Below, one piece after another: positions 13,250-29,316 of a stretch of DNA of 33,708 bases (the stretch's first letter is position 1; the number at the start of each line of letters is the position of its first letter). The DNA is taken from the NCBI GenBank assembly GCA_947467395.1, contig CANIIC010000022.1:1-33708 (forward strand), in the 5' to 3' direction. Made by a program: the position numbers and the translations under genes. Below the pieces are notes generated by a model. That model was not told where the DNA came from. It did no database searches and saw only the letters and a list, made by a program, of their open reading frames with translations. The stretch is from Bryobacterales bacterium (GTDB lineage: Bacteria; Acidobacteriota; Terriglobia; Bryobacterales; Bryobacteraceae).

Positions 13250-13456
13250 ATGACGAAATCAAAGGGCAGCGGACAGGCCGAGGTGGTCAAGAAGTTATTG
13301 GCGGACGTAGAGGAAAAGCTGAAGGCGGAGGGGTTGAAGGTCACGCTGGGGGACTATATCAAGCTAGTCCAGTTGCAAAAAGAGCTGGAACTAGACGAAC
13401 CAAGAGAGATTCGAGTTCGTTGGATGGACGAATCCGAGTCGTCGAGCGAAACCTAG
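13250..13456 (+). CDS. Small terminase-like protein
   Basis: A 68-aa charged, mainly helical protein opening the structural cluster. An amphipathic helix (QAEVVKKLLADVEEKLKAEG, 9-28) is followed by VTLGDYIKLVQLQKELEL (31-48) and an acidic Ser/Glu tail. I infer a small-terminase role only from its position directly before the large terminase and its helical, oligomer-prone look. No helix-turn-helix DNA-binding domain is visible, unlike phage small terminases that recognise pac or cos sites. A GAGGGAC lies just before the ATG. Its 3' end overlaps the likely start of the large terminase gene. It may instead be an unrelated accessory protein. Confidence 0.6.
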   Translation: MTKSKGSGQAEVVKKLLADVEEKLKAEGLKVTLGDYIKLVQLQKELELDEPREIRVRWMDESESSSET

Positions 13457-14718
13457 GCTATCGGCTGCTGCCTTCGCAGAAGAAGTTTCACGAATCGAAG
13501 GCGCGGTTCAAGGGGTTTTCGGGGCCGGTGGGGTCGGGCAAGACGCAGGCCCTGTGTGCGGAAGCAGTGAGACTTGCGTACCGGAATCACGGGCGAACGG
13601 GGTTGATCGGAGCTCCGACATATCCGATGTTGCGGGATGCAACGATTGCGTCGCTGACCGAGTATCTGGAATCACTGGGGATCGAGTTCACAGTGAATCG
13701 TGGGGAGAACTATCTGGTGATTCCGGAGGTCGGGTCACGGATTCTGTTTCGTGCGGTGGAGGAGTTTGAGCGCCTGCGCGGAAGTAACCTGGCTTGGTTC
13801 GGGCTGGATGAACTGACGTATACGTCGGAGGATGCATGGCTGCGCTTAGAGGGTCGCCTGCGCGATCCGAAGGCGACGGAGTTGTGCGGCTTCGCGGTGT
13901 GGACTCCGAAGGGCTACGACTGGGTCTATGAGCGGTTTGTGCGGGGCTGCATTGAAGGATACGAGACGGTGTTGGCGAAGCCGTTCGAGAACCGGTATCT
14001 ATTGGAGCGGATTCCGGACTACTACGAACGGTTGAAGCACAGTTACGATCCCCGGTTTTACCAGCAAGAGGTCATGGGCGACTACCTGCACTTGAAGGCC
14101 GGGCGCGTGTATGACTCTTTCGAGCGGGGGGCCAACGTGACGGAGGTGACGCTGGATCCGCAAGTTCCGCTGCTGTGGGCGTTGGATTTCAACGTGGATC
14201 CGATGTCGTCGGTGGTGGCGCAGGTGATCGGGGATCGGGTCCAGGTGTTCGACGAGATCGTTCTGAGCCGGGCGACGACGATGGATGCGTGTGATGAGTT
14301 TCAGCGGCGGTATCCACCGCATCCGGCCGGGTTGCAGGTGTTCGCGGATGCGTCAGGAGCGCGAAGTCAGACGACAGGACTGTCGGACATCACGGTCGTG
14401 AAGGATTCGTTTCGGAGCGGGGCATATGGGTCGGTGTCAACGAGGGTGCCGTCGTCGAATCCTGCGGTGCAATTGCGGGTCGGGCTGGTGAACGCCAAGT
14501 TGGGGAGCGCGGCGGGGCAGCGAATGTTGTTCGTGGATCCGCGTTGCAAGGAACTGATCAAAGATTTCGAGCAGGTTGCTTACAAAGAGGGGTCGCAGGT
14601 GATCGATAAAGAGCGGGATCCGAAGCGGACGCATCTGTCGGATGCGCTGGGGTACCTGGTGTGGCAGGAGTTTGGAAAGAAGCCGCAAGTGGGATTGGGA
14701 CGGGAGAGGTTGGTCTAG
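13420..14718 (+). CDS. Phage terminase large subunit
   Basis: About 432 aa; the ATPase-nuclease motor that pumps DNA into the procapsid. The ATPase half shows Walker A GPVGSGKT (35-42), TGLIGAPTYPMLRDA (~60-74) and Walker B LAWFGLDEL (~124-132, Asp-Glu pair), with a coupling stretch FAVWTPKGYDWVYERF (~158-173). The C-terminal RNase H-like nuclease half has ALDFNVDPMSSV, VFADASGA and THLSDALGYLVW, supplying the expected three acidic residues. The frame is open back to 13231, but that part is out-of-frame translation of the preceding gene. TTG 13420 is the only start near the first conserved residues, so the exact start is uncertain. It overlaps the previous gene by 37 bases. Confidence 0.93.
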   Translation: MDGRIRVVERNLGYRLLPSQKKFHESKARFKGFSGPVGSGKTQALCAEAVRLAYRNHGRTGLIGAPTYPMLRDATIASLTEYLESLGIEFTVNRGENYLVIPEVGSRILFRAVEEFERLRGSNLAWFGLDELTYTSEDAWLRLEGRLRDPKATELCGFAVWTPKGYDWVYERFVRGCIEGYETVLAKPFENRYLLERIPDYYERLKHSYDPRFYQQEVMGDYLHLKAGRVYDSFERGANVTEVTLDPQVPLLWALDFNVDPMSSVVAQVIGDRVQVFDEIVLSRATTMDACDEFQRRYPPHPAGLQVFADASGARSQTTGLSDITVVKDSFRSGAYGSVSTRVPSSNPAVQLRVGLVNAKLGSAAGQRMLFVDPRCKELIKDFEQVAYKEGSQVIDKERDPKRTHLSDALGYLVWQEFGKKPQVGLGRERLV

Positions 14719-14728
14719 GAGAAGACAC

Positions 14729-16096
14729 GTGTTCGATATTGACCAGGAACATCCGGAGTACGTCGCGAAAAAAACGACGTGGCGAAAGTATCGCGACTTG
14801 TACGCAGGCGGCGATCAACTGAAGGCCAACGCGGGGGAGTATCTGATCCGGCGGCAAAGAGAGCCGGGGGATGTCTACGCGGAACGATTGAATCGTGTGT
14901 TCTATGAGAACTACATCGGTTCGATTGTGGACTGGTACACGGCGACGTTATTCCGTCGTGAACCGGGGTTGACGTATCTGGGCGTGAACGAGCCGGGGCG
15001 GAAGTATTTTTCCGAGTTGACGGAGGACGCTGATCTTAAGGGGACGGCGTTGTCTGACTTCTTCCGGGCACAGTTTGCCGAAGGTTTAGTTACGGGTTCG
15101 AGCTGGGTGTTGGTGGACTTTCCGCGGAGTGCGAGTGTGGCGGGGACGCGTGCGGAAGAAGAGGCGCTTGGCGTGTCGCGAGCGTATCTGGTGCCGTATC
15201 GGAGCGAGGACGTCATCAACTGGAACTACGACGATCAAGGCTCACTGGACTGGGCGGTGGTGCGGACGTCTTGTGTGAAGAAGTCGAGCATCGACGATAC
15301 AGAGTGGCGTACTGAGACGGTGTGGCGTTACTACGACCGGGAGACATTTCGGGTGTTCCGGCAGGAACGGGCCGAAGGTCCGGTGGTGCGGGAGAACGAG
15401 GGACGTCACGGGCTGGCGAAGCTGCATCGTGTGCCGTTGTTCCAGTTGAACTTGAGTCAAGGCCAGTGGTTGTTGAATCGTGCGGGTTCTCTGCAGTTGG
15501 AGCACTTCAATAAGAGCAACGCACTGAGCTGGGCGTTGACGATGGGGCTGTTCGCGATGCCTGTAATCTTCAGTGAGCGCGAGTTCAGTCAGATGGTTGG
15601 CGAGAGCTACTACATCCAGTTGGGGCCCGAAGATCGGTTCGGGTGGACGGAGCCAGAGGGCAAAGTTTACCAGATTGCTGCGGACAACCTTGTTCGACTC
15701 CAGGAAGAGATCTACCGCGTGTGTTATCTGACGCAGGTGGGCGGGGCGCTGGATGCGACGGGACGGCAGAGTGCGGCTGCGAAGCAACGTGATTTCGCGA
15801 TCACGGTGGAAGTGCTGCGGTCGTACGGCGATGCGATGAAGGAGCAGATCCGGCGGGTGTTGTACGCGATCGATGAAGCTCGCGAGGACGGGCTGCATGT
15901 GAATGTGACCGGCCTGGACGAATTTGATATCGCGGATTTCGGTAGTGAGCTTGAAGATGCGAAAGCATTGCTGGAATTGGGCTTGGTGTCGCCGACCTTG
16001 AAGAAGGAAGTCTTCAAGAAATTGGCGCTCAAGTACCTTTGTGACGCCCGGCAGGATGTGAAGGACCGGGTCGTGGGGGAAATCGAAGCGGCATAA
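14729..16096 (+). CDS. Phage portal protein
   Basis: A 455-aa portal of the DUF4055/SPP1-like kind, forming the ring at the capsid vertex through which DNA passes. Evidence: position right after the large terminase, and the typical opening of a Tyr/Arg-rich helical segment (WRKYRDLYAGGDQLK ... YAERLNRVFYENYIGSIVDWY) leading to 'LFRREPGLTYLG'. A central mixed domain and a long helical stem/crown follow (ALSWALTMGLFAMPVIFSE, then VRLQEEIYRVCYLTQVGG and AAAKQRDFAITVEVLRSYGDAMKEQIRRVLYAID). The GTG start at 14729 is supported by AGGAGA 8 bases upstream and sits 10 bases after the terminase stop. The longer frame back to 14642 is overlap noise. Confidence 0.85.
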   Translation: MFDIDQEHPEYVAKKTTWRKYRDLYAGGDQLKANAGEYLIRRQREPGDVYAERLNRVFYENYIGSIVDWYTATLFRREPGLTYLGVNEPGRKYFSELTEDADLKGTALSDFFRAQFAEGLVTGSSWVLVDFPRSASVAGTRAEEEALGVSRAYLVPYRSEDVINWNYDDQGSLDWAVVRTSCVKKSSIDDTEWRTETVWRYYDRETFRVFRQERAEGPVVRENEGRHGLAKLHRVPLFQLNLSQGQWLLNRAGSLQLEHFNKSNALSWALTMGLFAMPVIFSEREFSQMVGESYYIQLGPEDRFGWTEPEGKVYQIAADNLVRLQEEIYRVCYLTQVGGALDATGRQSAAAKQRDFAITVEVLRSYGDAMKEQIRRVLYAIDEAREDGLHVNVTGLDEFDIADFGSELEDAKALLELGLVSPTLKKEVFKKLALKYLCDARQDVKDRVVGEIEAA

Positions 16097-16119
16097 CGTC
16101 TAGCTACGGATGAACACAC

Positions 16120-16551
16120 ATGGAAGAACTACAGACACTGATGAACGAGTTGGCTGAGGAACGGAAGCTGCGGGAAGGTCTGGAGTCGCGGGTGAATGAA
16201 CTCACGGCGGCAGCTCAAGAGGCGGAGCGGGTTTCGGCGATTCGCGGAGAACTGCAGAAGTTGGGTGTGGCCAAAGTGGACTTGGCATTCCGAGCGGTGA
16301 AAGAAGATTTGAAGCAGGCGTCTGGGGAGCAGGTGCGGGAGTATCTGGCCAAGTTTGTCGCGGAAAATCCGGAGTTGATGCCTGCGCGGATTTTAGGGGG
16401 CTCGGGCGCGATGTCCGGCAAGCGTGAGAGTGCTTCTGGGGGTGGGATCGATTTGGACAAGATCCGGCCGGGGATGAGCGCGGAAGAGATGGACAGAGTG
16501 AGGCAGGAGATCGCGCGGGTGGCGTCACAGACGTTGCGCGGTGGCTGGTAG
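16120..16551 (+). CDS. Probable capsid scaffold protein
   Basis: A 143-aa protein with a strong N-terminal coiled coil (~1-40, MEELQTLMNELAEERKLREG and the following heptads), a helical middle (~45-85), a Gly/Ser-rich flexible stretch (~92-110) and a helical end (GMSAEEMDRVRQEIARVAS). Coiled-coil, charged proteins placed directly before the capsid gene are usually scaffolds that shape the procapsid. No protease motif is present here or nearby, so removal would have to occur by exit rather than cleavage, as in P22-type assembly. Function is inferred from position and composition. Confidence 0.7.
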   Translation: MEELQTLMNELAEERKLREGLESRVNELTAAAQEAERVSAIRGELQKLGVAKVDLAFRAVKEDLKQASGEQVREYLAKFVAENPELMPARILGGSGAMSGKRESASGGGIDLDKIRPGMSAEEMDRVRQEIARVASQTLRGGW

Positions 16552-16598
16552 GGCCTCGATTGAGTTAGTGGACAGAAAGAGAGTGGAGGAATAAGAAC

Positions 16599-17510
16599 AT
16601 GGCAGCAATCACATCAACGAACGTGGCTAACGCGATTGTGAAGCTGGTGGCCGCGGATGCGCTACCGGCTCTGATGGGGAACCTGGTGATGGGGAACCTG
16701 GTCAATCGCGATTACGAAGCGTCGCTGGCGCAGGCAGGAGACACGATCAATGTCCCGTTGCCACCGACGATGACTGCGAACAATCTGGCGGAAGGCGGCA
16801 CGGTCACGACACAGAATCCGACGCTGACAACGGCGCAGATTCAGTTGACGACGCACGCGGAAGCGACCTTCATGGTTCCTGACGTGACGAAAGTGCTGGC
16901 GGTTCCGGATCTTCTGAGGCTGTACATGCAGCCGGCGGTGGTGGCACTGGCGGAACGGATCGAAACGGACCTGCTTAGTCTGTATCCCGGTTTTACGTCG
17001 AACACCCCGGTAGGTACCGCCGGCACGGCGATCACTGAAGCTGTTGTGGATTCGGCGGAGACGGCGCTGTTCTCTGCGAAGGTTCCCTCGAATCAGGCGA
17101 AATACTTGGTGGTTGATCCGGCGACATATGGTACCTTGCGCCAGATTCCGCGCTTCAGCGAATACAGCACGGCGGGCGAAGCGGGTCTGCGCGCGCTGGT
17201 GGATGGTTCAGTTGGCAAGATGAAGGACTTCTACATCTTCCGATCGCAACTGGTGATGAAGACTGGTAGCGCGCCGGTGACGACCAACAATCTGGCCTTC
17301 GCGAAGAACGCGATCGGTTTGGTGGTTCGTCGCTTGCCACAGCCTCTGCCGGGTACCGGTGCGATCGCCGAGTACGCGGAGTTGGGCAATTTCGGTATGC
17401 GCGTGACCATGAGCTACCAGCCGAACACGCTGGCTCAGCAATTCACTGTGGACTGCTTGTATGGTTGTGGCATTCTCCGGAACAATCATGCGGTTCAGGT
17501 TCGCAGCTAA
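16599..17510 (+). CDS. Major capsid protein, P22-coat-like
   Basis: A 303-aa coat protein with HK97-type character. It starts with MAAITSTNVANAIVKLVAADAL, then VNRDYEASLAQAGDTINVPLPPTM (the 'G.tv.ip.p' strand pattern of P22-gp5-like coats), a helix-rich spine region (LLRLYMQPAVVALAERIETDLLSLYPGF) and a C-terminal domain ending MRVTMSYQPNTLAQQFTVDCLYG. No N-terminal delta domain of cleaved HK97-type coats is apparent, consistent with the lack of a protease gene. GGAGGAATAA before the ATG is the strongest ribosome site in the cluster, as expected for the most abundant protein. A 5-residue tandem duplication (MGNLV MGNLV, residues 26-35) lies near the N-terminus. Confidence 0.87.
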   Translation: MAAITSTNVANAIVKLVAADALPALMGNLVMGNLVNRDYEASLAQAGDTINVPLPPTMTANNLAEGGTVTTQNPTLTTAQIQLTTHAEATFMVPDVTKVLAVPDLLRLYMQPAVVALAERIETDLLSLYPGFTSNTPVGTAGTAITEAVVDSAETALFSAKVPSNQAKYLVVDPATYGTLRQIPRFSEYSTAGEAGLRALVDGSVGKMKDFYIFRSQLVMKTGSAPVTTNNLAFAKNAIGLVVRRLPQPLPGTGAIAEYAELGNFGMRVTMSYQPNTLAQQFTVDCLYGCGILRNNHAVQVRS

Positions 17511-17536
17511 GAAGTTTGGAGTCAGAAGTCAGACTG

Positions 17537-17577: not shown

Positions 17578-17757
17578 ATGGAATTGCGCGAGTACTACCG
17601 GAAGGTTCGGGAAGTGGAAGCCGGGATTGTGGAGCCGTTTGTGACTGTTGTCAGCCGGAAGACTCCTGAAGCGGGACGCAAGGGGCTGAAAACGATGGTG
17701 ACGCGCGCTGTGGCTGCACGGTTGATCGTGGACGGGAAAGCGGATTTGGAGGAATAG
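17578..17757 (+). CDS. Small hypothetical phage protein
   Basis: A 59-aa basic helical protein (MELREYYRKVREVEAGIVEP ... ARLIVDGKADLEE) lying 3 bases before the connector gene. GGGGGA sits just before the ATG. Its place between capsid and connector suggests a small head-joining or capsid-associated role, but no family is recognised. The longer open frame upstream (to 17461) is out-of-frame capsid sequence and was not used. Confidence 0.65.
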   Translation: MELREYYRKVREVEAGIVEPFVTVVSRKTPEAGRKGLKTMVTRAVAARLIVDGKADLEE

Positions 17758-17760
17758 GCG

Positions 17761-18507
17761 ATGCTGCTGACGGATGGAAGTCCGAACACGACGGAGGATT
17801 TGCGGGCATATGAGTCGGCAATTCTGAGCGTCGCAAATGGGGAAGCGATTGACCTGGATGTAAAGCTGGCGCTTGCGACGGAGGAAGTCTCCCAGGAAGT
17901 GCTGGACTTCTTGGTGGGTCGCTTCGATTCGCGGCGGACGGTGGGTGTGACGGATGTGGTCGTGACGCGGCAGATGAAGCGGTGGCATGCGCTACATACG
18001 TTAGAGGTTGTGTATCGGGACGCGTTTCACAACCAACTGAACGATCGGTACAAAGAGAAATTTGCGGAGTATCAGCGGCTGAGCGAGCGTGCTCGGGCGC
18101 AGACGTTCCAGTTCGGAGTGGGGCTGGTGGGGCGGCCATTGCCCGTGGCGGAGGCACCGGAGTTTGGATTCACGGCGGGGCCGTTTGAGGCGCGGACGTA
18201 TTTCGTCAGGGTTGCGTGGGTGTCGGCCGCGGGGCAAGAGGGCTTTGCGAGTGCGGTGACGTCGTATGATGCGCCGGCGGGCACGGTTCCTGTGGTGAGC
18301 TCAGTGAATCCACCAACTGCGGCTAGCGGATTCCACGTGTACATGGGGCTGATGCCGGAGGCGCTGACGCGTCAGACATCGGCGGCGGTTCCGGTGGGGC
18401 AATCGTTCACGCTGCCTGTCGGTGGACTAATTGAAGGGGTGACTCCAGGTGAGGGGCAAAGTCCAGATCAGTTTGTGGCGGGATCGAACGTGACGAGGCG
18501 CGGGTAG
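17761..18507 (+). CDS. Head-tail connector with C-terminal Ig/FN3-like domain
   Basis: A 248-aa protein in the position of the adaptor that docks onto the portal. The N-terminal ~125 residues are helical (TEDLRAYESAILSVANGEAI, KLALATEEVSQEVLDFLVG ... QMKRWHALHTLEVVYRDAFHNQLNDRYKEKFAEYQRLSERAR) and fit head-tail adaptor folds. From ~145 it becomes beta-rich, with YFVRVAWVSAAGQEGFAS and SGFHVYMGLMPEALTRQ, the pattern of a fibronectin/Ig-like domain with a terminal Gly/Pro tail. Such decorations on phage head or connector proteins are known to bind surface sugars weakly. A similar 'gFnVYrG' domain recurs in the 1299-aa hub protein of this cluster. Confidence 0.65.
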   Translation: MLLTDGSPNTTEDLRAYESAILSVANGEAIDLDVKLALATEEVSQEVLDFLVGRFDSRRTVGVTDVVVTRQMKRWHALHTLEVVYRDAFHNQLNDRYKEKFAEYQRLSERARAQTFQFGVGLVGRPLPVAEAPEFGFTAGPFEARTYFVRVAWVSAAGQEGFASAVTSYDAPAGTVPVVSSVNPPTAASGFHVYMGLMPEALTRQTSAAVPVGQSFTLPVGGLIEGVTPGEGQSPDQFVAGSNVTRRG

Positions 18508-18509: not shown

Positions 18510-19007
18510 ATGGCGAGCACGGGGAGCGTGACCACGCGCAAGGTCGTTGAGTTGTTGCGTGCGAGGGAAGGCGGACTGAGTTCGGTGGTGGCACAGTTGG
18601 CGGAGGAGAGTGGGGTGGCCCTGGCCTCGGTGACTCCGGCACAGGTGCTGAATCAGAACGTCTCGATGGAGCTGAGTGAGCGTAGCCAAGTGGTGAAATA
18701 TCCGGTTGTGCATGTGTACACGGACCGAATTCGGAACGAGCTTAAGGAGAAGTTTCGGAAGTTTTCAGGGAAGGTGCGTACGGTGGCGGAGATCCGCGTG
18801 TCGCACGACCGGATCGAGGGGATTGAAGAACGCTTGCGGTTGTACGTGGATGCGGTCACGCGTGTCTTGGACGCGAATCGAGGAAGTTGGGGCGAGGGCA
18901 CGCACTTCGGTGGGCAGTATGAAGTGACCATCGAGCCAGTGAAACACGGCGGGAAGAATTTCCTGCAGATGGCGAAAGTGATTTTTGAAGTGGACTTGTC
19001 GTCGTAA
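18510..19007 (+). CDS. Probable tail terminator / head-tail joining protein
   Basis: A 165-aa protein starting 3 bases after the connector gene and followed by the tail tube gene, which is the usual place for a tail terminator. The C-terminal 100 residues alternate strand and helix (VVKYPVVHVYTDRIRNELKE, VRTVAEIRVSHDRIEG, ERLRLYVDAVTRVLDANRGSW, YEVTIEPVKHGGKNFLQMAKVIFEVDL), consistent with the small alpha/beta fold of this protein class. There is no strong family signature; the call rests on position, size and secondary-structure pattern. Confidence 0.6.
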   Translation: MASTGSVTTRKVVELLRAREGGLSSVVAQLAEESGVALASVTPAQVLNQNVSMELSERSQVVKYPVVHVYTDRIRNELKEKFRKFSGKVRTVAEIRVSHDRIEGIEERLRLYVDAVTRVLDANRGSWGEGTHFGGQYEVTIEPVKHGGKNFLQMAKVIFEVDLSS

Positions 19008-19025: not shown

Positions 19026-20198
19026 ATGTCTTGTTACATCTCATCGAACAATCATCGAGCGTTCGTGGCTCTGGAGACGGAGTTCGGCGAAGCGGCTGCG
19101 ATTACGGCGGAGAATCGGATTCCGTTGGTGAAGCTAGACGTTCGCCAGGTGGCGGAGCAGACGGGGCGCCGGGATAAGACCGGGAGCCGCACATTTGCGG
19201 GGCTTCCGAACCGGGTTCGGAAGTCAACGACGTTTCAGCTGAATACGCTGATGACGGAATGGGGAAATGCTCCAGCGGCGCCGGCGCATGGTCCGCTATT
19301 CGAGGCGGCAATGGGCGGCGACGCGCGGGCATTCACGGGTGGCGAGGTGGCGAGCCAACCTACAGCGAGGCAGATTGCGTTTACGGCTCCGCATGGATTG
19401 AGCATCGGCCAAGGCGTGACGTTCGGCGGAGAAATGCGGTTCGTTACAGGCCTGCCGAATGCTACGACGGTGGCAATCAATGCGCCGTTTTCGAATGTGC
19501 TGGTGAGTGGATCGGTGATCGGGGCGACGGTGACGTATTCTCTAGCGACGGACTTGAAGAGTGCGAGTCTGCATGACCGGTGGGATCCGGCGGAGGCTGT
19601 GCAGCGAATCGTGAGTGGTGTGGCGGTGGACACGATGCGGGTGAAGGTCAATGGCGACTTTCATGAGTTCCAGTTCTCCGGGCCAGCGCGAGAGATCGTC
19701 GACAATGCGACGTTTATCGGTGGTCAGGCCGGCTTGAGCGCGTTCCCTGCGGAGCCGAATCCGGTGGGTTTCGACTATACCGTGATTCCGGGGCATCTAG
19801 GGCAGGTTTGGATGGGGTCGGCACCGGGCCGAATGCACACGCTGACAGCAGCGGAATTAGTGATGGATAACGGCGTATCGCTGCGAGCACAGGAATTCGG
19901 CTCAGATTCGGCGCGGTGCATAGGGGCTGGACAACGTTCAGTGAAGCTGAACTTCAGTGTGTTCGCCCAAGACGATGCCGAGACCCTGGAGTTATACCAG
20001 GCGTCGCGGCAACGATCTCCGATCGAAGTGATGTTGCAGTTGGGGGAACAGCAGGGGCAATTGTTCGGAGCATTTCTGCCGGCGATGGTTCCAGAGGTTC
20101 CGGAGTTTGCCGATGGCGACTCACGGTTGGAGTGGAAGTTTGATGGGAGCCGGGCGCAGGGAGCGGTGGATGATGAACTCTACGTTTGTTTCGGATAA
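19026..20198 (+). CDS. Tail tube protein
   Basis: A 390-aa beta-rich protein in the tube position, just before the tail chaperone. The opening (MSCYISSNNHRAFVALETEFG) and RTFAGLPNRVRKSTTFQLNTLM resemble tube proteins of the 'RT..G.p....r.tsFel.tyl' kind. The C-terminal third returns to the same beta pattern (VSLRAQEFGSDSARCIGAGQ, SVKLNFSVFAQDDAETLELYQASRQRSPIEVMLQLGEQQG). It is longer than the usual 150-250 aa; the middle (~100-190: ARQIAFTAPHGLSIGQGVTF ... ATVAINAPF) looks like an inserted extra domain. A two-lobed tube subunit that forms trimers of pseudo-duplicated folds is possible. The next gene starts within its 3' end. Confidence 0.7.
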   Translation: MSCYISSNNHRAFVALETEFGEAAAITAENRIPLVKLDVRQVAEQTGRRDKTGSRTFAGLPNRVRKSTTFQLNTLMTEWGNAPAAPAHGPLFEAAMGGDARAFTGGEVASQPTARQIAFTAPHGLSIGQGVTFGGEMRFVTGLPNATTVAINAPFSNVLVSGSVIGATVTYSLATDLKSASLHDRWDPAEAVQRIVSGVAVDTMRVKVNGDFHEFQFSGPAREIVDNATFIGGQAGLSAFPAEPNPVGFDYTVIPGHLGQVWMGSAPGRMHTLTAAELVMDNGVSLRAQEFGSDSARCIGAGQRSVKLNFSVFAQDDAETLELYQASRQRSPIEVMLQLGEQQGQLFGAFLPAMVPEVPEFADGDSRLEWKFDGSRAQGAVDDELYVCFG

Positions 20199-20565
20199 CT
20201 GTGGCTACAGCAGTTCGCTGTGGTTTGAGGCAGAGAGCTCTGTTGGAGTGCGCTATCGAATCGCACGGATTTCGGTGGGGCGGCGGATTGAACTCGCGAA
20301 GAAGATTCGCGAAATCGGGCGGCGGCTGGAGTTTCTGGAAGCGGGTAACGATGCCCGGGAGAAGTTAGAGGCGGCAGTGCTGGCGAGCGAGATCGATCGC
20401 GCGTATCTGGAATGGGCGTTGGAGGCTGTTGACGGACTGGAGATTGATGGTGAGGCTGCGACGCCTGCGGTATTGATCGAACGAGGTCCAGTGGAGTTAG
20501 CCGCGGAGATCCTGAGGCGCATCCAGGCGGAGTGCGGGCTCACCGAGATTCAGCGAAAAAACTGA
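20170..20565 (+). CDS. Tail assembly chaperone, short form (gpG-like)
   Basis: A 131-aa helical protein (VGRRIELAKKIREIGRRLEFLEAG, ALEAVDGLEIDGEA, AAEILRRIQAECGLTEIQRKN) between tail tube and tape measure, the fixed location of gpG/gpGT-type chaperones that wrap the tape measure during tail assembly. The last codons are CGA AAA AAC TGA, forming the slippery heptamer A AAA AAC (20556-20562) immediately before the stop. A -1 shift there enters the frame that continues to 20903, giving a ~244-aa long form. The start is uncertain: ATG 20170 overlaps the tube gene by 29 bases, while GTG 20248 would begin at VRYRIARISVGRR. Confidence 0.7.
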   Translation: MMNSTFVSDNCGYSSSLWFEAESSVGVRYRIARISVGRRIELAKKIREIGRRLEFLEAGNDAREKLEAAVLASEIDRAYLEWALEAVDGLEIDGEAATPAVLIERGPVELAAEILRRIQAECGLTEIQRKN

Positions 20566-20903
20566 TCGTCGCATTCCACTTTGTTCGCACGGAGCAGTCC
20601 CGGTGGAGATGCGACGCATGCCGGAAGCAGGGGCTGGAGGTGCGTCGGCGGTGCGGGTTTCTTGAGGAGGGGCGGCGAGGGCCAGTGCGACTGGTGTGGG
20701 CGCATGGACGAACGGGAGTGGAGGAATGCCCGAAGTCCTTCGTCACATCCGCGAGTGCTGAGTTGGTGGAGCAGTTCTTTGTTTGGAAGGCCTCGGGAGC
20801 TCGGAACTGGGCGATGTTGACGGCTCGTCAGGCGGATGCTTTCGGGGTGTTGGAAGAAGAATGGCGGACTGGTACGGACTCAGGGGGATCGCATGGCGGG
20901 TAA
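20532..20903 (+). CDS. Tail chaperone extension (gpT-like), -1 frame
   Basis: The -1 frame is open from GTG 20532 to TAA 20901-20903. After the frameshift it adds ~113 aa starting LIVAFHFVRTEQSRWRCDAC. The body has a CDAC ... RRRCGFLEEG ... EECPKSF cysteine pattern (C-x2-C-x10-C-x24-C) that could hold zinc, then a helical end (SASAELVEQFFVWKASGARN, LTARQADAFGVLEEEW). Position and frame relation fit the T-domain of lambda-type gpGT. It could also be translated on its own from GTG 20532, but that start has only AGGCGG one base ahead of it. The 3' end overlaps the tape measure start by 11 bases. Confidence 0.65.
   Translation: MRAHRDSAKKLIVAFHFVRTEQSRWRCDACRKQGLEVRRRCGFLEEGRRGPVRLVWAHGRTGVEECPKSFVTSASAELVEQFFVWKASGARNWAMLTARQADAFGVLEEEWRTGTDSGGSHGG
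20556..20616 (+). promoter_or_regulatory. Programmed -1 ribosomal frameshift signal
   Basis: The slippery heptamer A AAA AAC (20556-20562) is in the correct phase of the chaperone frame and is followed at once by its TGA. Four bases later a stem begins: CGTCGCAT (20567-20574) pairs perfectly with ATGCGACG (20609-20616). After a single bulged G (20608) it continues with TCCAC (20575-20579) against GTGGA (20603-20607), about 13 Watson-Crick pairs in all. This is the standard heptamer-spacer-structure layout, between tube and tape-measure genes as in lambda G-T. Confidence 0.78.
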
Positions 20904-21841: not shown

Positions 21842-22635
21842 TGCTGGTGTTTCCACAACTGAGTACCGGCTCTGTGGCTTTGTATCCTTTGCGGCGGACT
21901 CGGCGTCGGCGGACGGTCCAGAACGTACTCGCAGGTGGGACGGTGGTGACGTTCGCAGATCCTGACTCTGCGGTTACGCAGTGGGATCTGGAAGCGGTTG
22001 GCCTGAGTGAAGCCGAGCGCGGGGCGCTCGTTGGGTTCTTTGAAACTGTCGGCGGTGAGGAGTCGACGTTCACTTTTCTGGAACCGGCAGGGAATCTTCT
22101 GGCACAGAGCGAGACATTTGGAGCAGCTGAATGGGGCAATTCACCGCTGATGTCGGTTGTCACGGGTATAGACGACCCTTGGGGCGGAACGAGGGCGTCC
22201 CGGATTACGAACTCTGGTCCGGTTGCGGGATCAATCGCGCAGTTGCTGGCGGTGCCTGGCACTTTTCAATACGTGTTGAGTGCATGGGCTCGTGCGAACA
22301 CTGCGTCGACAGTGACGCTCATCGCCGAGACAACCGGGGGGAGTGCTGAGAAGGCGTTCGCTTTAACAAACGCGTGGTTGCGGGTGTCGATGCCTGTGGC
22401 TTTGGGGTTTGCGACGGAGTCGGTGAGGTTCGGAGTGCGGGTGGAAGCCGCAAAGGCGGTGGATCTGGTTGCGATGCAAGCGGAGGCACAGCCAGGAGCT
22501 GGTGACTATCAGCGGACCGGAGCGACGGGGGGCGTCCACTTGAAGGCTCGGTTCGGGATGGATGAACTGGCGATCCGGGCTCGAGGCATGGATGTGTACG
22601 ACGCAGTGATTCGGATCGTGAGCAAGGGGAACTAA
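21841..22635 (+). CDS. DUF2460-like distal tail protein 2 with inserted CBM-like domain
   Basis: A 264-aa relative of the preceding gene: FPQLSTGSVALYPLRRTRRR ... TVVTFADPDSAVTQWDLEAVGLSEAERGALVGFFETVGGEESTFTFLEP mirrors the 118-aa protein. At ~82-225 a separate domain is inserted, opening NLLAQSETFGAAEWGN and continuing through FQYVLSAWARANTASTVTLI and WLRVSMPVALGFATESVRFG. This is the familiar jelly-roll carbohydrate-binding-like insert of phage tail proteins ('NLL..Se.f....W'). The C-terminus returns to the tail fold (ARGMDVYDAVIRIVSKG). It probably lines the tail tip and displays a sugar-binding arm. The two paralogues may alternate in the ring or stack. Confidence 0.68.
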   Translation: MLVFPQLSTGSVALYPLRRTRRRRTVQNVLAGGTVVTFADPDSAVTQWDLEAVGLSEAERGALVGFFETVGGEESTFTFLEPAGNLLAQSETFGAAEWGNSPLMSVVTGIDDPWGGTRASRITNSGPVAGSIAQLLAVPGTFQYVLSAWARANTASTVTLIAETTGGSAEKAFALTNAWLRVSMPVALGFATESVRFGVRVEAAKAVDLVAMQAEAQPGAGDYQRTGATGGVHLKARFGMDELAIRARGMDVYDAVIRIVSKGN

Positions 22636-22638: not shown

Positions 22639-25600
22639 GTGCCAACAATCGATGAGCTGAAAGAGCTGGAAGTTACTCCGACGCCGTTATTCCTGTTCGA
22701 ATGTAGGTTCAGTGACGGAAGTGTGGAGCGGTGGGGTACTCATGGGGTGACGTTCGAGGGGAATCGTTACTTAGCTCGGTTGTTGCGGCACAATTTGTTT
22801 GAATTGAAGTCTTCACTTGAAGATGGGCTAGATGGGGCAGCAAAGATTAGTGTGATGCTGGCGAACGCGGATTCCCGGTATTCGCAGATTGAGCGGAATA
22901 TCGGATTCAAAGGTGCACAGGTCACGATCCGATTCCTATTTTTCGATTTGGTGACGGATGGAGCCGCGTCAGAGAGTCGCGTAGTGTTTCGTGGCGTGGG
23001 TGGGGATCCCGATGAGATCACGGAATCTTCCCTACGCGTGACGTTCTCGAATCGATTCAACTTGCAACGCATCATGCTGCCGGAGGTTCGTATTCAGCGT
23101 CGATGCCCATGGCTGTTTCCCGCGAATCATGAGCAGCGGCAAGAGGCGCTGGATGGTGGCGAGCGCGGCCGGTACTCGGCACTGCATCGCTGTGGGTACT
23201 CGGCGGGATTGTCCGGCGGTGAAGGGACGTTAGATGGAAGTGTGCCCTTTACAACTTGTGATTACTCGCGTGCGAGTTGTGAGTCGCGGGGGATGTTTGG
23301 GTTAGGTCGGTTTGGCGGAATGGACTTCGTGCCGACGCAGATTCAGGTGAGGTCGCATGGGGAGTCCGGTTCGCACCTGTCGGCGGTCGTCGATAATCAG
23401 GCTCGCTATAACGACGTTGTGCCCGTGGTGTACGGTACAGCCTGGTATGAACCTCCGGTGGTGTCTGCCCGAAACGATGGGAACCTGACCCACATGGAAG
23501 TGCTGCTAGGAATGGGGGAAATCGACGACGTTCTCACAACAATTGTGAATGATGTCGAAATTCCTGAGGCGGTGCCGGGTGCGGACATGGCGGCTACCGG
23601 CTGGTATCACGTGGTGACGACGGGGACTCGATCGGGTGTGCAGAATCCCGACTTCAGCGATGGAAGTGGGAATCCTTTGGGCGACCCCTACGGGAGCATG
23701 GCGCTAGCCAGTATCTTTGTTCCGAATCAAATCAGCAACGGGCAGTCGACGCCGAAAGTGAAGGTTTTGCTTCGAGGTGTCAAGCTGGAGCGATTCGATA
23801 GCGACGGCGTTTCTTTGGGTGAAGAGTTTACGGCAAATCCGGCATGGGTTCTGTTGGATGTGCTCCGCCGGAGTGGGTGGTTGTTGAGTGAAGTAGATAT
23901 TTCTACTTTCGCCGCAACGGCGGACTACTGTTCCACCGGCTTGGCGTCGGAGGATTTGTACGGAAAAGCCCTAACGATTCCGCGATATCAGTGCAATCTA
24001 GTGATTCGGAGTCGCCGGAGCGCCGCAGAAGTGGTTCGTGGTATCCGCGCAAGTTCGGCATTGTTGCTTAGTTACGGTGTGGATGGTCGGTTGACGCTAC
24101 GGGTCGAGAATACCCTGGCGGAGCAGCAGAGCTTCAAGCCCGGGGGCAGCAATAGCAGTGAGCCTTTGTCCGGAGGTTGGCCGGCCTATGAATTTAGCGA
24201 CGGGTCGGCAGCGTTTTCAGGAATCCTTCGGCGATCCACTGAGGAGCCTTCACTGCGCCTGTTCTCTCGTCCATCTTCGGATTCACCGAATCGACTGACG
24301 GCGGAGTTTCAGGACGAGTTCAATGAGTATCAGCAGGACAGTCTGTCTTTGGTGGACGTTGATGACGCATTGTTGACTGGGCGCGAGGTGAGTGGTTCTT
24401 ATCCGGCGCTGGGGCTGCCAAACTTCGATCAAGCGAAGCGGGTTCTGAATCTGCAATTGGCGAAGTCCATCGCGGGAAACACGTTCATTGAACTAGAAAC
24501 ATCGGTACGTGGGCTGGGATTGGTGCCTGGGGATCTGATCACGGTCACATTCGTCAAGGAGGGCCTCGATCGGCAGCTGTTTAGAGTGGTGCGAGTGGCC
24601 CCGGGGACAAATTTTGAGAGTGTGCAAATAACGGCTCAATGGCACGAGGACGCTTGGTACACCCCCGGGGAGGGCACTGCTGCGGGCGGGCGTAGAGGCC
24701 ACGGGGCAGGAGTGGGAACGCCGAGGCCGTTAGTTGGTCCGGTGATTGATGAGTACGGAGTGAGTCAGTTTGTGGTGAGCGACGTGGTGGAGCCGGTGGC
24801 TGGTGGTGAAGTGGCTGTGCGAGTACGCGCAGAGTTTCAGAATCCAAGCGTGCCGATGGCGTCGGCCGCGCATGCTCCTTTAGTGAGTCTGACACCGTCG
24901 ATTTCGACGAGTGGAGGAAACCTCGCCGGAGGGCAGTCGTTGTATTACGCTCTGAGTGCAAAGGACGCCGACGGCGCAGAGAGTGCGCTTTCTTTCGCGG
25001 TTCGGGCGCGCATTCCGGCTGGATCTTCTGAAAATTCAGTCACGGTACAGGGGCTCAGTTTCTCAGCTAGTACTGTGGGATTCAATGTATACCGCGGAAG
25101 TTCTCCAGGGCGCTTGCTGCTCATTGCTGCCGATCAGGCCGTAGCAGGAACGTTTACGGACGCGGGGCTTAGCGCGGAGTTGATTGGGCCTCCTGATGAG
25201 AACTTCCATCACGCGAACTTTTATTGGCGGACAGAGTTCGTTCCAGAGAGCGGGGTTGACGTGCACTCGGCGACGACGGTAGGAAACTTTGCGTTGGGGT
25301 TAGGTACAGACGCGTTCGCTGGGTCGGTCATTCGGATTACGCGGGGGCGGGGCGTTGGCCAGGAGCGGCGAGTCGTGTCAAACACCGCGACGTCGTTTAG
25401 CGTGACCCCATCGTGGGGGGTTGAACCCGATTCAACGAGTTTCTTCACTGTGGCGGAGTCAACGTGGAAGTTCGCTGGCATGGTTACGAGCAGCCCTGCG
25501 GAGTTCGAGGGACCACGATTCGTGGGGTTGACAATCCAAATCTCGGGGCGTGCGGCGAATGCGCTGAACCGAGAGAGCGTATTTGAATTGAGTCCGGTGA

Positions 25601-26538
25601 CGAGGTGGCAGATCGGCTCAAGTGGCGGGGTTGACCTAGACTCTCCACCGGCACCAATCTATGGGCTGGACGCGACTGGTGACGGATCACTGGAGATGGC
25701 CGGTGTGGGCTTCACAAGTTTTGCGAACACGCACACAATCAGCGCGGGGGTATTAGATCTCTTCTGGTGGGATGAGTTGAGTAGTCCATCCGCTATTGGA
25801 CTGGGGGCTTCGGTCGACGGGACTACGGCCGAGCTGACGGTGTCTCCTCCGGTGGAGTCGATGACGCTGCCACTGATCCAAATCGGGGGCGAAATCATGG
25901 AAGTTCTGGACGTGCTGGACAGTGGGGCGACATATCACGTGGTACGTGGTGCACAGGGGAGTTCGGCGGCGGCGCATGCGAGCGGAGATCGTGTGTACCA
26001 TTTACAGCGAACGACAGCGGTGATTCCATTTGTAAACGGATTCTTCGTGAGCCCGGCGAGCGGAACATTCCGGTATTCCATGTCGCTCCCCGATGTTCGG
26101 ATCGGGGCGGCGAATCTTCATATGATCAACGCCTTCGGGGACGGAGAGATCGGGTTCGCAACGTTTGGCGGATCCCTGGATCAAGGGATTCGAACGTTGT
26201 CGGGGGGGCAGGTTGCGATTCAGGTGGAGGGGTATTTGGCGATTCAGAATAGTGCTGCGCCCGCGTTAGTGATCGATCGGACTCATGCGGTGGGTGAGAT
26301 CTTTGCGGTAGTCCGAGAGGCCCCTGATGGGGGGCCGATCGAGTTGACGATTCGTCAGGACGACGATGTGTACTGCACGCTTACCATCGCGGATGGTGCC
26401 AACGTATCCAATGTCGTCCGGGGCTTTGGACTACCGCCACTCTCTGTCGACAAACGGCTCTACTTGGACGTCGCTTCGGTGCCCGGAGCTCCGAATACGT
26501 TGCCGGGACGAGATCTGACCGTGACGATCCGGATGTAG
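22639..26538 (+). CDS. Tail hub fusion: gpL-like Fe-S domain plus gpJ-like tail protein
   Basis: A 1299-aa tail-tip protein. Residues 1-245 resemble gpL/DUF2163 tail-tip proteins: FLFECRFSDGSVERWGTHGVTFEG at the start and four cysteines, Cys156 (RRCPWLFP), Cys185 (LHRCGYSAG), Cys207 and Cys214 (TTCDYSRASCESRG), ending in the typical FGLGRFGGMDFVP. Lambda gpL relatives bind an iron-sulphur cluster through such cysteines. From ~260 a gpJ-like central-fibre/hub module follows (VPVVYGTAWYEPPVV, MEVLLGMGEIDDVLTTIVNDVEI), then LITVTFVKEGLDRQLFRVVRV. An FN3-like domain sits at ~745-850 (VGFNVYRGSSPGRLLLI), then an IMEVLDVLDSGATYHVVRGA module (~1090) and a beta-rich end. Separate genes in lambda and in RcGTA are here one polypeptide. 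The GTG start lies 3 bases after the previous stop. Confidence 0.8.
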   Translation: MPTIDELKELEVTPTPLFLFECRFSDGSVERWGTHGVTFEGNRYLARLLRHNLFELKSSLEDGLDGAAKISVMLANADSRYSQIERNIGFKGAQVTIRFLFFDLVTDGAASESRVVFRGVGGDPDEITESSLRVTFSNRFNLQRIMLPEVRIQRRCPWLFPANHEQRQEALDGGERGRYSALHRCGYSAGLSGGEGTLDGSVPFTTCDYSRASCESRGMFGLGRFGGMDFVPTQIQVRSHGESGSHLSAVVDNQARYNDVVPVVYGTAWYEPPVVSARNDGNLTHMEVLLGMGEIDDVLTTIVNDVEIPEAVPGADMAATGWYHVVTTGTRSGVQNPDFSDGSGNPLGDPYGSMALASIFVPNQISNGQSTPKVKVLLRGVKLERFDSDGVSLGEEFTANPAWVLLDVLRRSGWLLSEVDISTFAATADYCSTGLASEDLYGKALTIPRYQCNLVIRSRRSAAEVVRGIRASSALLLSYGVDGRLTLRVENTLAEQQSFKPGGSNSSEPLSGGWPAYEFSDGSAAFSGILRRSTEEPSLRLFSRPSSDSPNRLTAEFQDEFNEYQQDSLSLVDVDDALLTGREVSGSYPALGLPNFDQAKRVLNLQLAKSIAGNTFIELETSVRGLGLVPGDLITVTFVKEGLDRQLFRVVRVAPGTNFESVQITAQWHEDAWYTPGEGTAAGGRRGHGAGVGTPRPLVGPVIDEYGVSQFVVSDVVEPVAGGEVAVRVRAEFQNPSVPMASAAHAPLVSLTPSISTSGGNLAGGQSLYYALSAKDADGAESALSFAVRARIPAGSSENSVTVQGLSFSASTVGFNVYRGSSPGRLLLIAADQAVAGTFTDAGLSAELIGPPDENFHHANFYWRTEFVPESGVDVHSATTVGNFALGLGTDAFAGSVIRITRGRGVGQERRVVSNTATSFSVTPSWGVEPDSTSFFTVAESTWKFAGMVTSSPAEFEGPRFVGLTIQISGRAANALNRESVFELSPVTRWQIGSSGGVDLDSPPAPIYGLDATGDGSLEMAGVGFTSFANTHTISAGVLDLFWWDELSSPSAIGLGASVDGTTAELTVSPPVESMTLPLIQIGGEIMEVLDVLDSGATYHVVRGAQGSSAAAHASGDRVYHLQRTTAVIPFVNGFFVSPASGTFRYSMSLPDVRIGAANLHMINAFGDGEIGFATFGGSLDQGIRTLSGGQVAIQVEGYLAIQNSAAPALVIDRTHAVGEIFAVVREAPDGGPIELTIRQDDDVYCTLTIADGANVSNVVRGFGLPPLSVDKRLYLDVASVPGAPNTLPGRDLTVTIRM

Positions 26539-26550
26539 GAAGGAGTAGCG

Positions 26551-29316
26551 ATGCCGGAATTGCTTGAAAAACTTCGCCCAGATCGGGACTTGCAATGCTT
26601 CTTCTTTCAGCCCTCCGCAATCGCCGCGCTCAGCGACACTTCAGCGACCGGGTTTCGTGTTTCGGGGACCTGGCGCCAGCAATTTGACTGGGCAGTTGTG
26701 GAGTGGAATCGCGACAACGTGTTTGAGCACCCTGCGTTTCGGAGCTTGCCAGACGGAGACTTGAGTGGACTGACGCTCAGTTATGAAGAAACTCGTGACA
26801 ACTGCATTTTGATTGATTCCGACCTGTTTCCGACCGTTGATTGGCCATATCTGCGGATCTGGGCGGACAACAGTGGCACGGAAACAATCTACTACGTGCC
26901 GTTGCGTGAGTACGCGGAGGCGATCGCGGGCGCTTACGAGTCCGCCTATGCTGAATTTACGTTGTCCGGTACTCCCATAGCGGGCGATTTCATTGGTCTG
27001 GCCTACTTGGGGCTCCACTATACATATCAGTTGACAGCGTCGGACACGCTTGAGTCTGCCCTGCAGATGATTGTGGACGGTATGAACGCGAGCTGGTCGC
27101 CATTGCTGAAGGCCACACGCTCTGGCACGACGATCCGCGCCTATTACACGAATGGATCGGCAATTGTGGACGCAACGACGGGTGCGAACGGGAATCGATT
27201 TGCGCTGTATTCGTACTCCACGGGGGCGGCGGTGTGGGATTCTTCGGGGAAGACGTTCACACATGGAGCGTCGCCGAGTGTGTGGAGAATCACTTTAGAC
27301 TTCGCATCGTTGCACGGGTTGGTTCGGGACGAATTCGGTGTGCTTGGAACGACGCCAGTGGCGATACCCACGAACAAGATTCGCAAGATGCGGTGGACTT
27401 GGGCCGCCGAGCTGCAATCGGGTCCATTTGAACGGAGCGAGTTCACAGTTGGGGTATCGAACTGGACGGTCACCGGGACTGGACGCACCTATTGGGTAGC
27501 GGGTCGAGGGTCTCGTCGGATAGAGGATGACGATTTCTCGTTGGCCTATTCGGGGACTTGGGGCGTCGGGAGAGGGAACTTCTCTGGCGGGACAATTCAC
27601 TCGACGGTGACACCGGGATCAAGTGTAACCATCGAGTATCTGGCAAGCAGCGTGCACACGCTGTTGATTGGAACCCGCTATACGAACGCCGGGGCTACCG
27701 TCGGGATTTCGGTTGATGGAAGTTCTGTGGGGTGGATGCATCTTCACATGCCGCAGGAGGATGTGCTGATTCGGTGGCCTGTTGGTGAGTATGGCAGCGG
27801 ACTCCATTCGGTTACGTTGACGCACGCGGGAAGCGCGGGGCAAGACTTCTATTTCGACTTCATCGAGTTGGCCGTTCCGACGACAACGTTGCCGGAGTTT
27901 CCGAGCATGCCCGAATTTACACTCGCGACCGACTGGGATACGGATCACTCGGTGGCGATTGCTCCGGAGCGGACGGCGTGGTTCATGCACTCGTTGGGCT
28001 TTCATGGGAGGCAGAATCACTACGTAGGTGCGTTGTTATTCTATGAATTGTTGTGCGTCGGCAACGTTTTGGCGTCGGGGAGCATAACGTTTAGCGGGAC
28101 TGCCGATGCCACGGTGTCTGTCACTGTGGGTCCCTCCGGGAGTGCGACGACGATCTCCCGCGTTATCCACGCTGGGGACAGTCCGTCGAGTGTTGCTCTA
28201 TCCTTCGCACAAGAGTTCAATCGCGGTTACACGGGATTGTGGGCAACTGCGTCCGACGGAGTCTTGACCATTTGCTCGCGACAGCTGGGGACGCTTGGAA
28301 ACGCGAATACGCTGAGCGCTTCGACAACAAGCTCAGTGTTGTCGATCAGTGTGTCGGGTAGCTCTTTTTCAGGAGGTATCGACGGAAGTTGGCGGACGGA
28401 CCTGAATGCGACGCCTCGACTGAATCGGGCAATGCGGGATTGGACGCGGAGTTTTCTCGAGGCATTGCACGGGTATGGGATCGATGCTGTTTGTGCCTTC
28501 AGTACAGAGTTGAAGCACGGCGATCCTTCTGTGGGAGCGGGGATCGCTCAGCGCGGACCGGGGGGCGATCCGATTCTGCTGCCGACGCCTGCCCTTCAGA
28601 CAAACTTCTCGCCGACGAGCTTGGCGTTTTGGAAGCACGTTCACGCGGATTGTGCTGCGATCATGGACGAGGCGGGGCTAGTTCCTTACCTGCAATTTGG
28701 CGAGGAACAGTGGTGGTATTTTCCACATGACGGACTTGGTACGACATTTTCGGGGATGCCGTTTTACGATGCATGGACTTTGTCGGAGTTTTCGTCTCGG
28801 TATGGACGGCCGATGGCGGTCTTCACAACGAACAACGCCGATCCAGAGGAATATCCAGAAGAAATGGAGTTCTTGTCCGGGCTGATCGGAGAGTTTACGG
28901 ACGCCGTGATGAGCCACGTAAGGGTCTCTTTGCCGTCCACTCGCTTCGAGGTGTTGTATCCCTTCGACGTCAATCAGACCGATTTCAACAAGGTGATCAA
29001 TTTTCCTGCCACGCACTGGACGTCCGAGGCTCTTCACTGTCTAAAGACGGAAGGACTGGGGCTAACTTTCACTCGCAATCTCGCCGCGAGCGAAGCGGGA
29101 ATTGACATGGGGCAAGCGTTGGGATTTGATGCAAACAAGAGAAGTCACCTTGTTGGGATTGGCGATGCGACGGCGCCTTGGCTGAAGGAAGCACGCATCG
29201 CCCAAGGGAAGGGATTTGAAAGTGTAGTGCTGTTCGCGCTCGATCAGTTCTGCTTAATTGGGCACGACATTCCGCTACCCTCGACGGCGCGGCGAGCGTC
29301 ACGCGTACGTCGCTAG
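26551..29316 (+). CDS. Tail-tip protein with sugar-binding-like and TIM-barrel hydrolase-like regions
   Basis: A 921-aa last gene of the cluster; AAGGAG precedes the ATG. N-terminal region 1-125 is of unknown fold. A beta module at ~130-225 (AEFTLSGTPIAGDFIGLAYL ... GANGNRFALYS) recurs in diverged form at ~510-610 (GSITFSGTADATVSVTVG ... LGNANTLSAS). Between them, ~317-450 looks like a carbohydrate-binding jelly roll (AYSGTWGVG, VGISVDGSSVGWMHLHMP, GLHSVTLTHAGSAG, FYFDFIELAVP). The C-terminal ~300 residues read as an alpha/beta barrel of glycoside-hydrolase type: AMRDWTRSFLEALHGYGIDAV, then VPYLQFGEEQWW with candidate acids Glu718/Glu719, RFEVLYPFDVNQ (~800) and SVVLFALDQF (~897). It probably binds and possibly cuts a surface polysaccharide; catalysis is unproven. 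Confidence 0.65.
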   Translation: MPELLEKLRPDRDLQCFFFQPSAIAALSDTSATGFRVSGTWRQQFDWAVVEWNRDNVFEHPAFRSLPDGDLSGLTLSYEETRDNCILIDSDLFPTVDWPYLRIWADNSGTETIYYVPLREYAEAIAGAYESAYAEFTLSGTPIAGDFIGLAYLGLHYTYQLTASDTLESALQMIVDGMNASWSPLLKATRSGTTIRAYYTNGSAIVDATTGANGNRFALYSYSTGAAVWDSSGKTFTHGASPSVWRITLDFASLHGLVRDEFGVLGTTPVAIPTNKIRKMRWTWAAELQSGPFERSEFTVGVSNWTVTGTGRTYWVAGRGSRRIEDDDFSLAYSGTWGVGRGNFSGGTIHSTVTPGSSVTIEYLASSVHTLLIGTRYTNAGATVGISVDGSSVGWMHLHMPQEDVLIRWPVGEYGSGLHSVTLTHAGSAGQDFYFDFIELAVPTTTLPEFPSMPEFTLATDWDTDHSVAIAPERTAWFMHSLGFHGRQNHYVGALLFYELLCVGNVLASGSITFSGTADATVSVTVGPSGSATTISRVIHAGDSPSSVALSFAQEFNRGYTGLWATASDGVLTICSRQLGTLGNANTLSASTTSSVLSISVSGSSFSGGIDGSWRTDLNATPRLNRAMRDWTRSFLEALHGYGIDAVCAFSTELKHGDPSVGAGIAQRGPGGDPILLPTPALQTNFSPTSLAFWKHVHADCAAIMDEAGLVPYLQFGEEQWWYFPHDGLGTTFSGMPFYDAWTLSEFSSRYGRPMAVFTTNNADPEEYPEEMEFLSGLIGEFTDAVMSHVRVSLPSTRFEVLYPFDVNQTDFNKVINFPATHWTSEALHCLKTEGLGLTFTRNLAASEAGIDMGQALGFDANKRSHLVGIGDATAPWLKEARIAQGKGFESVVLFALDQFCLIGHDIPLPSTARRASRVRR

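Follow-up and report, generated by a model that had tools for sequence, protein, structure and literature searches.

A conserved Bryobacterales particle gene cluster that is probably a domesticated phage acting like a gene transfer agent

Introduction

When a bacterial chromosome holds the head, motor and tail genes of a phage-like particle between ordinary neighbours, is the particle a resident virus or a tool of its host? The question is raised by a 33,708-nucleotide stretch of DNA from a Bryobacterales bacterium (Acidobacteriota; Bryobacteraceae), here called the window, which is one whole contig (G000:C22) of a draft genome. Positions 13250–29316 carry a dense run of 16 plus-strand genes for the head, motor and tail of a siphovirus-like particle with a P22-type coat. 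The original prediction proposed an acidobacterial gene transfer agent (GTA) here. GTAs are well studied in Alphaproteobacteria, while descriptions from other lineages are few (PMC11841831). Synteny, congruence with the rpoB tree, low ratios of nonsynonymous to synonymous substitution (dN/dS), deletion scars and the lack of a near integrase support that proposal. On comparative grounds, the cluster is probably a domesticated Bryobacterales tailed-phage particle that works like a GTA.

Gene calls and profile matches bear out the tightly packed, intact, same-strand layout first described. All 15 proteins counted at the outset are present; a small gene ahead of terL (13250–13456) had been overlooked, which brings the total to 16. 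Besides the large terminase (TerL), portal, coat and tail hub, the genes are labelled g1, g3 and g5 to g13 along the cluster; the last encodes a non-contractile tail sheath-like TIM-barrel protein (NCTSP).

Conservation and distribution

A portal match was found in 54 of 101 relatives, comprising 49 of 61 genomes of the host family (Bryobacteraceae; 16 of 23 in the genus) and five in other families; 50 of the 54 have a single match. Among GTDB contigs, 172 relatives came up, and the best 80 loci were examined. All 80 are acidobacterial, 35 of them Bryobacterales or Bryobacteraceae. Where the contig covers the position, the genes occur as follows: TerL 79/79, portal 80/80, g3 75/75, coat 74/74 (median identity 78%), g5 60/73, g6 69/70, g7 67/68, g8 63/64, g9 61/62, g10 60/62, g11 57/60, g12 59/60 and g13 56/57; the hub and NCTSP lie outside these fetched loci. 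The genes found keep one order in all 40 fetched regions, which include the prophage of G053. Of 31 regions 18.8 kb or longer, 20 have matches to all 15 queried genes, and the cluster spans a median of 16.3 kb (26 regions). Synteny in related Acidobacteriota, which the original prediction had asked for, is kept across many genera.

Among 396 genomes drawn from the phylum, strong coat matches occur only in G000 and G010, and 19 others match weakly (23–30% identity). A plasmid element was rejected, the coat reaching at best 27–28% in two plasmid records.

Inheritance and selection

Inheritance of the cluster, which the original prediction had asked to check, is mainly vertical. Across 42 genomes, the rpoB tree and the cluster tree (nine genes, 3474 columns, FastTree) have 25 of 39 splits in common, against a maximum of 3 in the 500 label shuffles that served as baseline. 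Patristic distances correlate at r = 0.84, and 13 of 22 supported rpoB splits are also supported in the cluster tree. The set leaves out genomes, G005, G060 and G061 among them, in which the sequence of rpoB or of the cluster was short or missing.

In line with the early remark that this cluster shows no broken frames or debris, open reading frames (ORFs) are mostly intact in the genomes that keep it. Counting distinct ORFs of at least 75% of expected length, and leaving out those that run off a contig, the intact fractions are 100/100 for portal, 94/96 for TerL, 90/93 for coat, 80/80 for g8, 69/71 for g11, 32/33 for the hub and 26/26 for NCTSP. Median dN/dS (Nei–Gojobori; up to 10 close pairs per gene, one pair each for hub and NCTSP) ranges from 0.05 for coat to 0.235 for g11, well below 1 as anticipated.

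Selection bears on what the particle is for. A domesticated particle with a use other than gene transfer (kin-killing, protein delivery or an anti-phage weapon acting through shared coat proteins) is unlikely. It would fit the likeness of the coats to those of related phages and the exchange between the two, a last gene whose end is still in frame where other genes have been deleted, and the lack of any cargo or hydrolase gene indicating a known use. However, purifying selection on TerL, portal and coat is about as strong as on the tail genes, which favours a DNA-filled head, and no toxin profile matched any cluster protein in the Pfam and PHROGs scans.

Chromosomal setting

The flanks are ordinary chromosomal genes, as first read. 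To the left lie the rpoC 3′ end, DUF72, HD-GYP/GGDEF, sigma-54 activator, GMC oxidoreductase, HlyD and 2′-5′ RNA ligase genes. To the right lie amino-acid permease, HupE, AI-2E transporter and carboxyltransferase genes; the 3′ end of the cluster is 23 bases upstream of the permease gene. A tRNA search of the window found none. The rpoC end occupies window positions 1–582 and rpoB lies near the end of a separate contig, C101, so the cluster is probably downstream of rpoBC in this genome.

Twelve genomes were scanned for tyrosine integrases (PF00589); the search did not extend to serine recombinases, transposases or attachment repeats. Nine have none on the contig of the cluster, and in the other three the nearest lies about 42 (G026), 70 and 450 kb away. 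Within about 42 kb, or as far as contig ends allow, none of the 12 has a PF00589 match, and the adjoining integrase of an active prophage was not found. The predicted lack of an integration gene is confirmed for tyrosine integrases.

The claim of a constant chromosomal place stands within subclades and fails beyond them: the left-flank genes of the window occur at 0 of 53–75 testable GTDB loci, the sole exception being 2 weak HlyD matches of 65. Some neighbours are common within subclades: upstream, one gene family (15 loci) and asnB-like genes (13 loci); downstream, an ABC transporter (11 genomes) and an M24-type peptidase (12 genomes). The asnB and downstream labels were read from sequence.

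Phage relatives and virus catalogues

The best INPHARED matches reach 29% identity for coat, 29% for portal and 33–34% for TerL. Closer phages come from IMG/VR, on contigs up to 67 kb; their TerL, coat and portal are related to those of the cluster, and their remaining genes are different. Seven phage contigs (L313, L317–L320, L323 and L370) and a prophage on G053:C144 have the head gene order of the window, with TerL 45–50%, coat 62–74% and portal 27–33% identical to it. These relatives differ from the cluster in carrying a small terminase (TerS) of about 200 residues in seven of the eight (L370 has another ORF) and extra ORFs between head and tail genes. L313 (48.7 kb) has a tyrosine integrase, whereas three cluster-bearing records have none, and its tape-measure candidate is at least about 530 residues long against the short g11 of the cluster. 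The G053 prophage has DNA-methylase-like ORFs (read from sequence). This genome carries both a cluster and the prophage, with a 71% identical coat; the coats of the prophage (L138, L293, L294) and L313 are about 71–72% identical to that of the window.

In the TerL tree (46 clusters, 12 phages), the clusters fall on one side of a branch with SH-like approximate likelihood ratio (SH-aLRT) support of 94. In the coat tree, phage coats are scattered among cluster coats with no separation, which suggests, from the sequences, that some coat genes have been exchanged between phages and clusters.

A selfish prophage lineage, integrating often and losing its mobility genes, or a helper-phage satellite, would explain the spread as repeated infection. 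True phage relatives with 62–74% identical coats, one of them in the same genome as a cluster, the mixing of coat genes in the tree, and a chromosomal place that varies between subclades all speak for this. It is nevertheless quite unlikely: the cluster follows the rpoB tree, the portal is nearly always single, no integrase is near, flanks are common within clades, and absences in five genomes are deletion scars.

Virus catalogues hold many such stretches, with at least 598 in IMG/VR encoding the coat or a relative. The best 80 of these (L151–L230) lie on contigs no longer than 18.7 kb, from which it follows that host-encoded clusters are probably catalogued as viruses. The 25 longest of the 80 have the gene order of the window, 7 of them with no NCTSP match.

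Losses and deletion scars

A portal match is absent in twelve genomes of the family. Five congeners have deletion scars with cluster remnants: G001 and G014, the rpoB sisters of G000, at the site of the window itself, and G005, G013 and G020 elsewhere. At the window's site in G001 and G014, the genes from HlyD to the RNA ligase are followed by the 5′ part of terL fused in frame to part of the NCTSP gene; the two junctions are not alike. The G001 remnant, which was read whole, includes g1 and has the permease, HupE, AI-2E and carboxyltransferase genes on its right side, while the G014 contig stops within the remnant. In G013 and G020, g1 is kept ahead of a terL–NCTSP fusion ORF (876 and 870 codons) with a common junction, whose terL side has a short stretch resembling the NCTSP of the window. 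In G005, where ten genes are missing, the portal is present and a coat–NCTSP fusion replaces the middle genes. Absences with remnants mark losses, not sites that predate insertion. A clean empty site in sister strains, which the original prediction named as a sign against it, was not seen; the sister sites examined are scars.

The other absences are of mixed kinds. G041 has TerL and the hub without the portal, so the portal is probably missing from the assembly. No TerL match was found in G002, G007, G027, G031, G032 and G043; in G031, about 100 residues of the hub are matched at 34%. G018 has only weak or partial TerL matches.

The remnants occupy L411 7213–8280, L412 1–925, L430 5223–7835, L431 4746–7376 and L111 13678–15915 (G005). 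They show four distinct junctions, all in frame from an upstream gene (terL or coat) to the last gene, for which the chance is 1 in 81 if frames are random. The G005 coat (L111 15262–15915) has a long branch of 0.44 in the coat tree, part of which may stem from the fusion. G013 and G020 share their junction though G019, whose cluster is intact to the contig end, is nearer G020 on rpoB; a tree of 300 bp around the junction was unresolved. The G013/G020 remnant has a dN/dS of 0.11. A use of NCTSP without the particle, considered from this value, was not upheld: with G019 beside G020 on the rpoB tree, the deletion may be parallel and the selection may predate it.

A cryptic, decaying prophage inherited passively would account for the decay in G001, G005, G013, G014 and G020 but is highly improbable, since frames elsewhere are mostly intact and dN/dS is 0.05–0.24 over order-level divergence. 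A recent prophage was rejected on the congruent trees, the scars and the lack of a near integrase, and a tailocin on the presence of TerL, portal and coat.

The small terminase candidate

The first gene, g1 (13250–13456), is an ORF of 68 residues that overlaps the likely terL start and has an alignable conserved core, (A/V)TLGDYIRLxQLxKELE...EIxVTWV. Of 117 loci with room ahead of terL, 115 have g1 according to a hidden Markov model (HMM). The HMM seeds, which are counted in that figure, were 33 loci found by motif (identical sequences merged) plus the window; some of the 117 loci were fetched twice, and 93 g1 sequences are distinct. Eight phage relatives have in this place an ORF of about 200 residues, all eight mutually alignable, and the two of these that were scanned match small terminase family phrog_6299 (E 1e-11 and 8e-13). 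The phage contigs L322 and L370 have other ORFs there. Pfam gave no match for three g1 proteins and nothing above cut-off for five phage proteins. Putative small terminases of known GTAs are described as lacking a DNA-binding domain in the available text of PMC11841831. In place and size, g1 matches that pattern and is a candidate TerS.

Other genes of the particle

The remaining genes follow on the same strand. TerL (13420–14718) has 432 residues from a probable TTG start at 13420, the mechanically listed ORF starting at 13231; it matches phrog_2 (E 4e-40) and PF03237 (3e-8). The portal protein (14729–16096; 455 residues from a probable GTG start at 14729) matches phrog_145 (E 7e-51) and the solved portal 8ts6 (E 1e-6). 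Preceding the coat gene, g3 (16120–16551; 94/94 distinct ORFs intact) is by position a scaffold candidate. The major coat protein (16599–17510; 303 residues) matches PF11651 (E 8e-18) and phrog_283 (E 1e-42), and the P22-like coat of the original prediction is thereby borne out. A candidate small head or connector protein, g5 (17578–17757), has about 59 residues from a start set by homologues, and g6 (17761–18507; 248 residues), a protein of the head–tail region, has a remote homologue in phage L313. NCBIfam gave a single weak terminase match among nine cluster proteins.

Two tail genes were placed by predicted fold, with AlphaFold models made from 26-row alignments. By its model (mean predicted local distance difference test, pLDDT, 88), g7 (18510–19007) is a tail terminator; Foldseek matches are the P74-26 neck (8e-6), T5 p142 (9e-6) and lambda gpU. 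Likewise, the model of g8 (19026–20198; pLDDT 81) is that of the major tail tube protein, matching 8xan (2e-13), the P74-26 tail tube (1e-12) and T5 pb6. Between the tube and tape-measure genes lie two tail assembly chaperone candidates: g9 (20107–20565, start uncertain, probably near 20245) and the overlapping g10 (20532–20903), which varies in length (61/77 'intact'). The short tape measure candidate by position is g11 (20896–21483), with about 195 residues from a likely start at 20896 (215 in the mechanical ORF) and a median ORF of 219 residues in 69 sequences.

At the tail tip, g12 (21485–21841) is a distal tail protein of the DUF2460 type (PF09343 E 3e-6, under the Pfam cut-off), adjoined by a second DUF2460-like protein, g13 (21841–22635), which is extended at its C-terminus. 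The N-terminus of g13 is 29–31% identical to g12 in L434 and L435; the pair (21485–22635) probably arose by duplication. The tiny tape measure and DUF2460-like distal proteins noted at first are thus recovered, at candidate level for g11 and by similarity for g13. The 'CBM/FN3 decorations' fared less well: the CBM comes down to one weak match in the g13 extension (PF02018, E 0.03), and FN3 had no profile match. The tail hub, a J-like central protein (22639–26538; 1299 residues), matches phrog_31 (E 2e-19) and PF13550 (5e-6), and has an N-terminal four-cysteine domain whose Cys 156, 185, 207 and 214 are kept in 32 of 32 hubs. NCTSP (26551–29316; 921 residues) matches PF23845 (E 7e-14), with no match in INPHARED and none by sequence in the PDB. 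Loci L118, L123, L128, L142 and L146 (genomes G049, G046, G054, G034 and G050) have a full-length hub and no TIM-barrel last gene. NCTSP is accessory, yet its end is what persists in the deletion remnants of other genomes.

Comparison with known gene transfer agents

RcGTA of Rhodobacter capsulatus has a cluster of similar size and order with DUF2460 and PF13550 proteins, and it carries a head protease gene. The window resembles it in the small gene before terL, the short tail, the distal tail protein, the four-cysteine hub and vertical inheritance. It differs in its P22-like coat, the lack of a peptidase or protease match, the joining of hub and J-like part in one 1299-residue protein, the TIM-barrel tail protein and the phylum. 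In RcGTA, g1 is TerS (PMC7947584), four cysteines of the hub bind an iron–sulphur cluster and a tail peptidase gene is present (both from the available text of PMC7296036). RcGTA-type coats are PF05065 (as used in PMC8346489), which is not among the coat matches here. Neither the peptidase nor the head protease of Rhodogtaviriformidae was found: the 15 ORFs scanned against Pfam and PHROGs gave no peptidase or protease domain at E up to 0.1. Its different coat family places the cluster outside the RcGTA family (Rhodogtaviriformidae); the parallel first drawn with RcGTA survives for the tail tip and general layout and fails for the coat.

BhGTA (VSH-1) and BaGTA, set beside the window by description, are likewise independently domesticated tailed-phage clusters, in other phyla. 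The structural cluster of BhGTA measures 16.3 kb (excerpt of PMC9662315), and BaGTA uses run-off replication (excerpt of PMC11841831).

The cluster has probably been seen before under another name. Bryobacterales 'group (i)' proviruses were described in 2025 in KBS 96, Solibacter usitatus and Paludibaculum fermentans (available text of PMC11924767). The hosts are the same, including KBS 96, whose genome has all 15 queried genes (L126; same scaffold as L072), and these proviruses are probably the cluster of the window. They are described there as proviruses with no GTA reading, and the main text as available never uses the words 'gene transfer'. Prophages have also been reported in KBS 96 (available text of PMC5900883). 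In the openly licensed literature, which was partially covered, no publication naming this cluster a GTA and none on an Acidobacteriota GTA was found.

Function and weighing of the evidence

PMC9662315 gives six GTA features: tailed particles of caudoviricete-derived proteins, cargo of mostly random host DNA, full endogenisation, a head too small for the complete genome of the GTA itself, vertical co-diversification with hosts, and delivery of the cargo to other cells. Three are found here: caudoviricete-derived tailed-particle proteins (from profile and fold matches, the particle being known here from genes alone); endogenisation, with chromosomal flanks, no near integrase and scars in place; and co-diversification with hosts. 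From anatomy and these published features (PMC9662315), we infer that packaging of host DNA and its delivery to kin is the most likely function.

The proposed course is as follows. A host signal would turn on the operon, and a P22-coated head would form. TerL would fill it with host DNA, aided by a short small terminase from which the half that recognises sequence in the phage protein may have been lost. The short tail, four-cysteine hub and distal tip proteins would then attach to related cells and deliver the DNA. Genes elsewhere would provide lysis and regulation, as they do in RcGTA.

Several observations weigh against a GTA. Three of the 22 supported rpoB splits are contradicted by a supported split of the cluster tree, and phage coats mix with cluster coats. 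NCTSP is absent, also by profile, from 5 of the 31 long regions (G034, G046, G049, G050 and G054), which makes it an accessory part; g5 is missing in 3 of these regions and g11 in 2 (G005 apart). Its loss in several congeners shows that the cluster is dispensable. No peptidoglycan hydrolase matched among the cluster proteins (Pfam and PHROGs scans). The size of g1, 68 residues against about 200 in the eight phages, fits the GTA small-terminase trait (PMC11841831), but hhalign against two phage TerS sequences gives a probability of 0.4%, and descent from TerS is statistically unsupported. There is no clear drop in carbon content from the phage homologues to the cluster versions of TerL, portal, coat, g3 and g8 (portal, cluster v phage, 3.14 v 3.01, g8 2.76 v 2.53, g3 2.71 v 2.74). 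Lower carbon content is a signature of RcGTA.

Significance

We lean, with less assurance than for the GTA-like particle itself, towards a wider account. A P22-coated phage would have been domesticated independently into a GTA that was handed down through the order Bryobacterales and persists in scores of soil species (172 GTDB loci, of which 80 were examined). With at least 598 IMG/VR stretches encoding the coat or a relative, soil virus catalogues probably list it among 'viruses', and some of the bacterial DNA in peat viromes may come from its particles. GTAs are suspected in Stordalen Mire peat viromes, and about 25% of the assembled reads in a peat virome study fell to contigs that matched 16S or known GTAs (available text of PMC6172770).

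If this is true, a conserved GTA of soil Acidobacteria shows domestication from a different type of phage, and the cultured KBS 96 offers a test system. Solibacter usitatus Ellin6076 and Paludibaculum fermentans P105 would be further test systems if the proviruses described in the available text of PMC11924767 are the cluster of the window. Part of the 'viral' sequence space of soil would then be host machinery.

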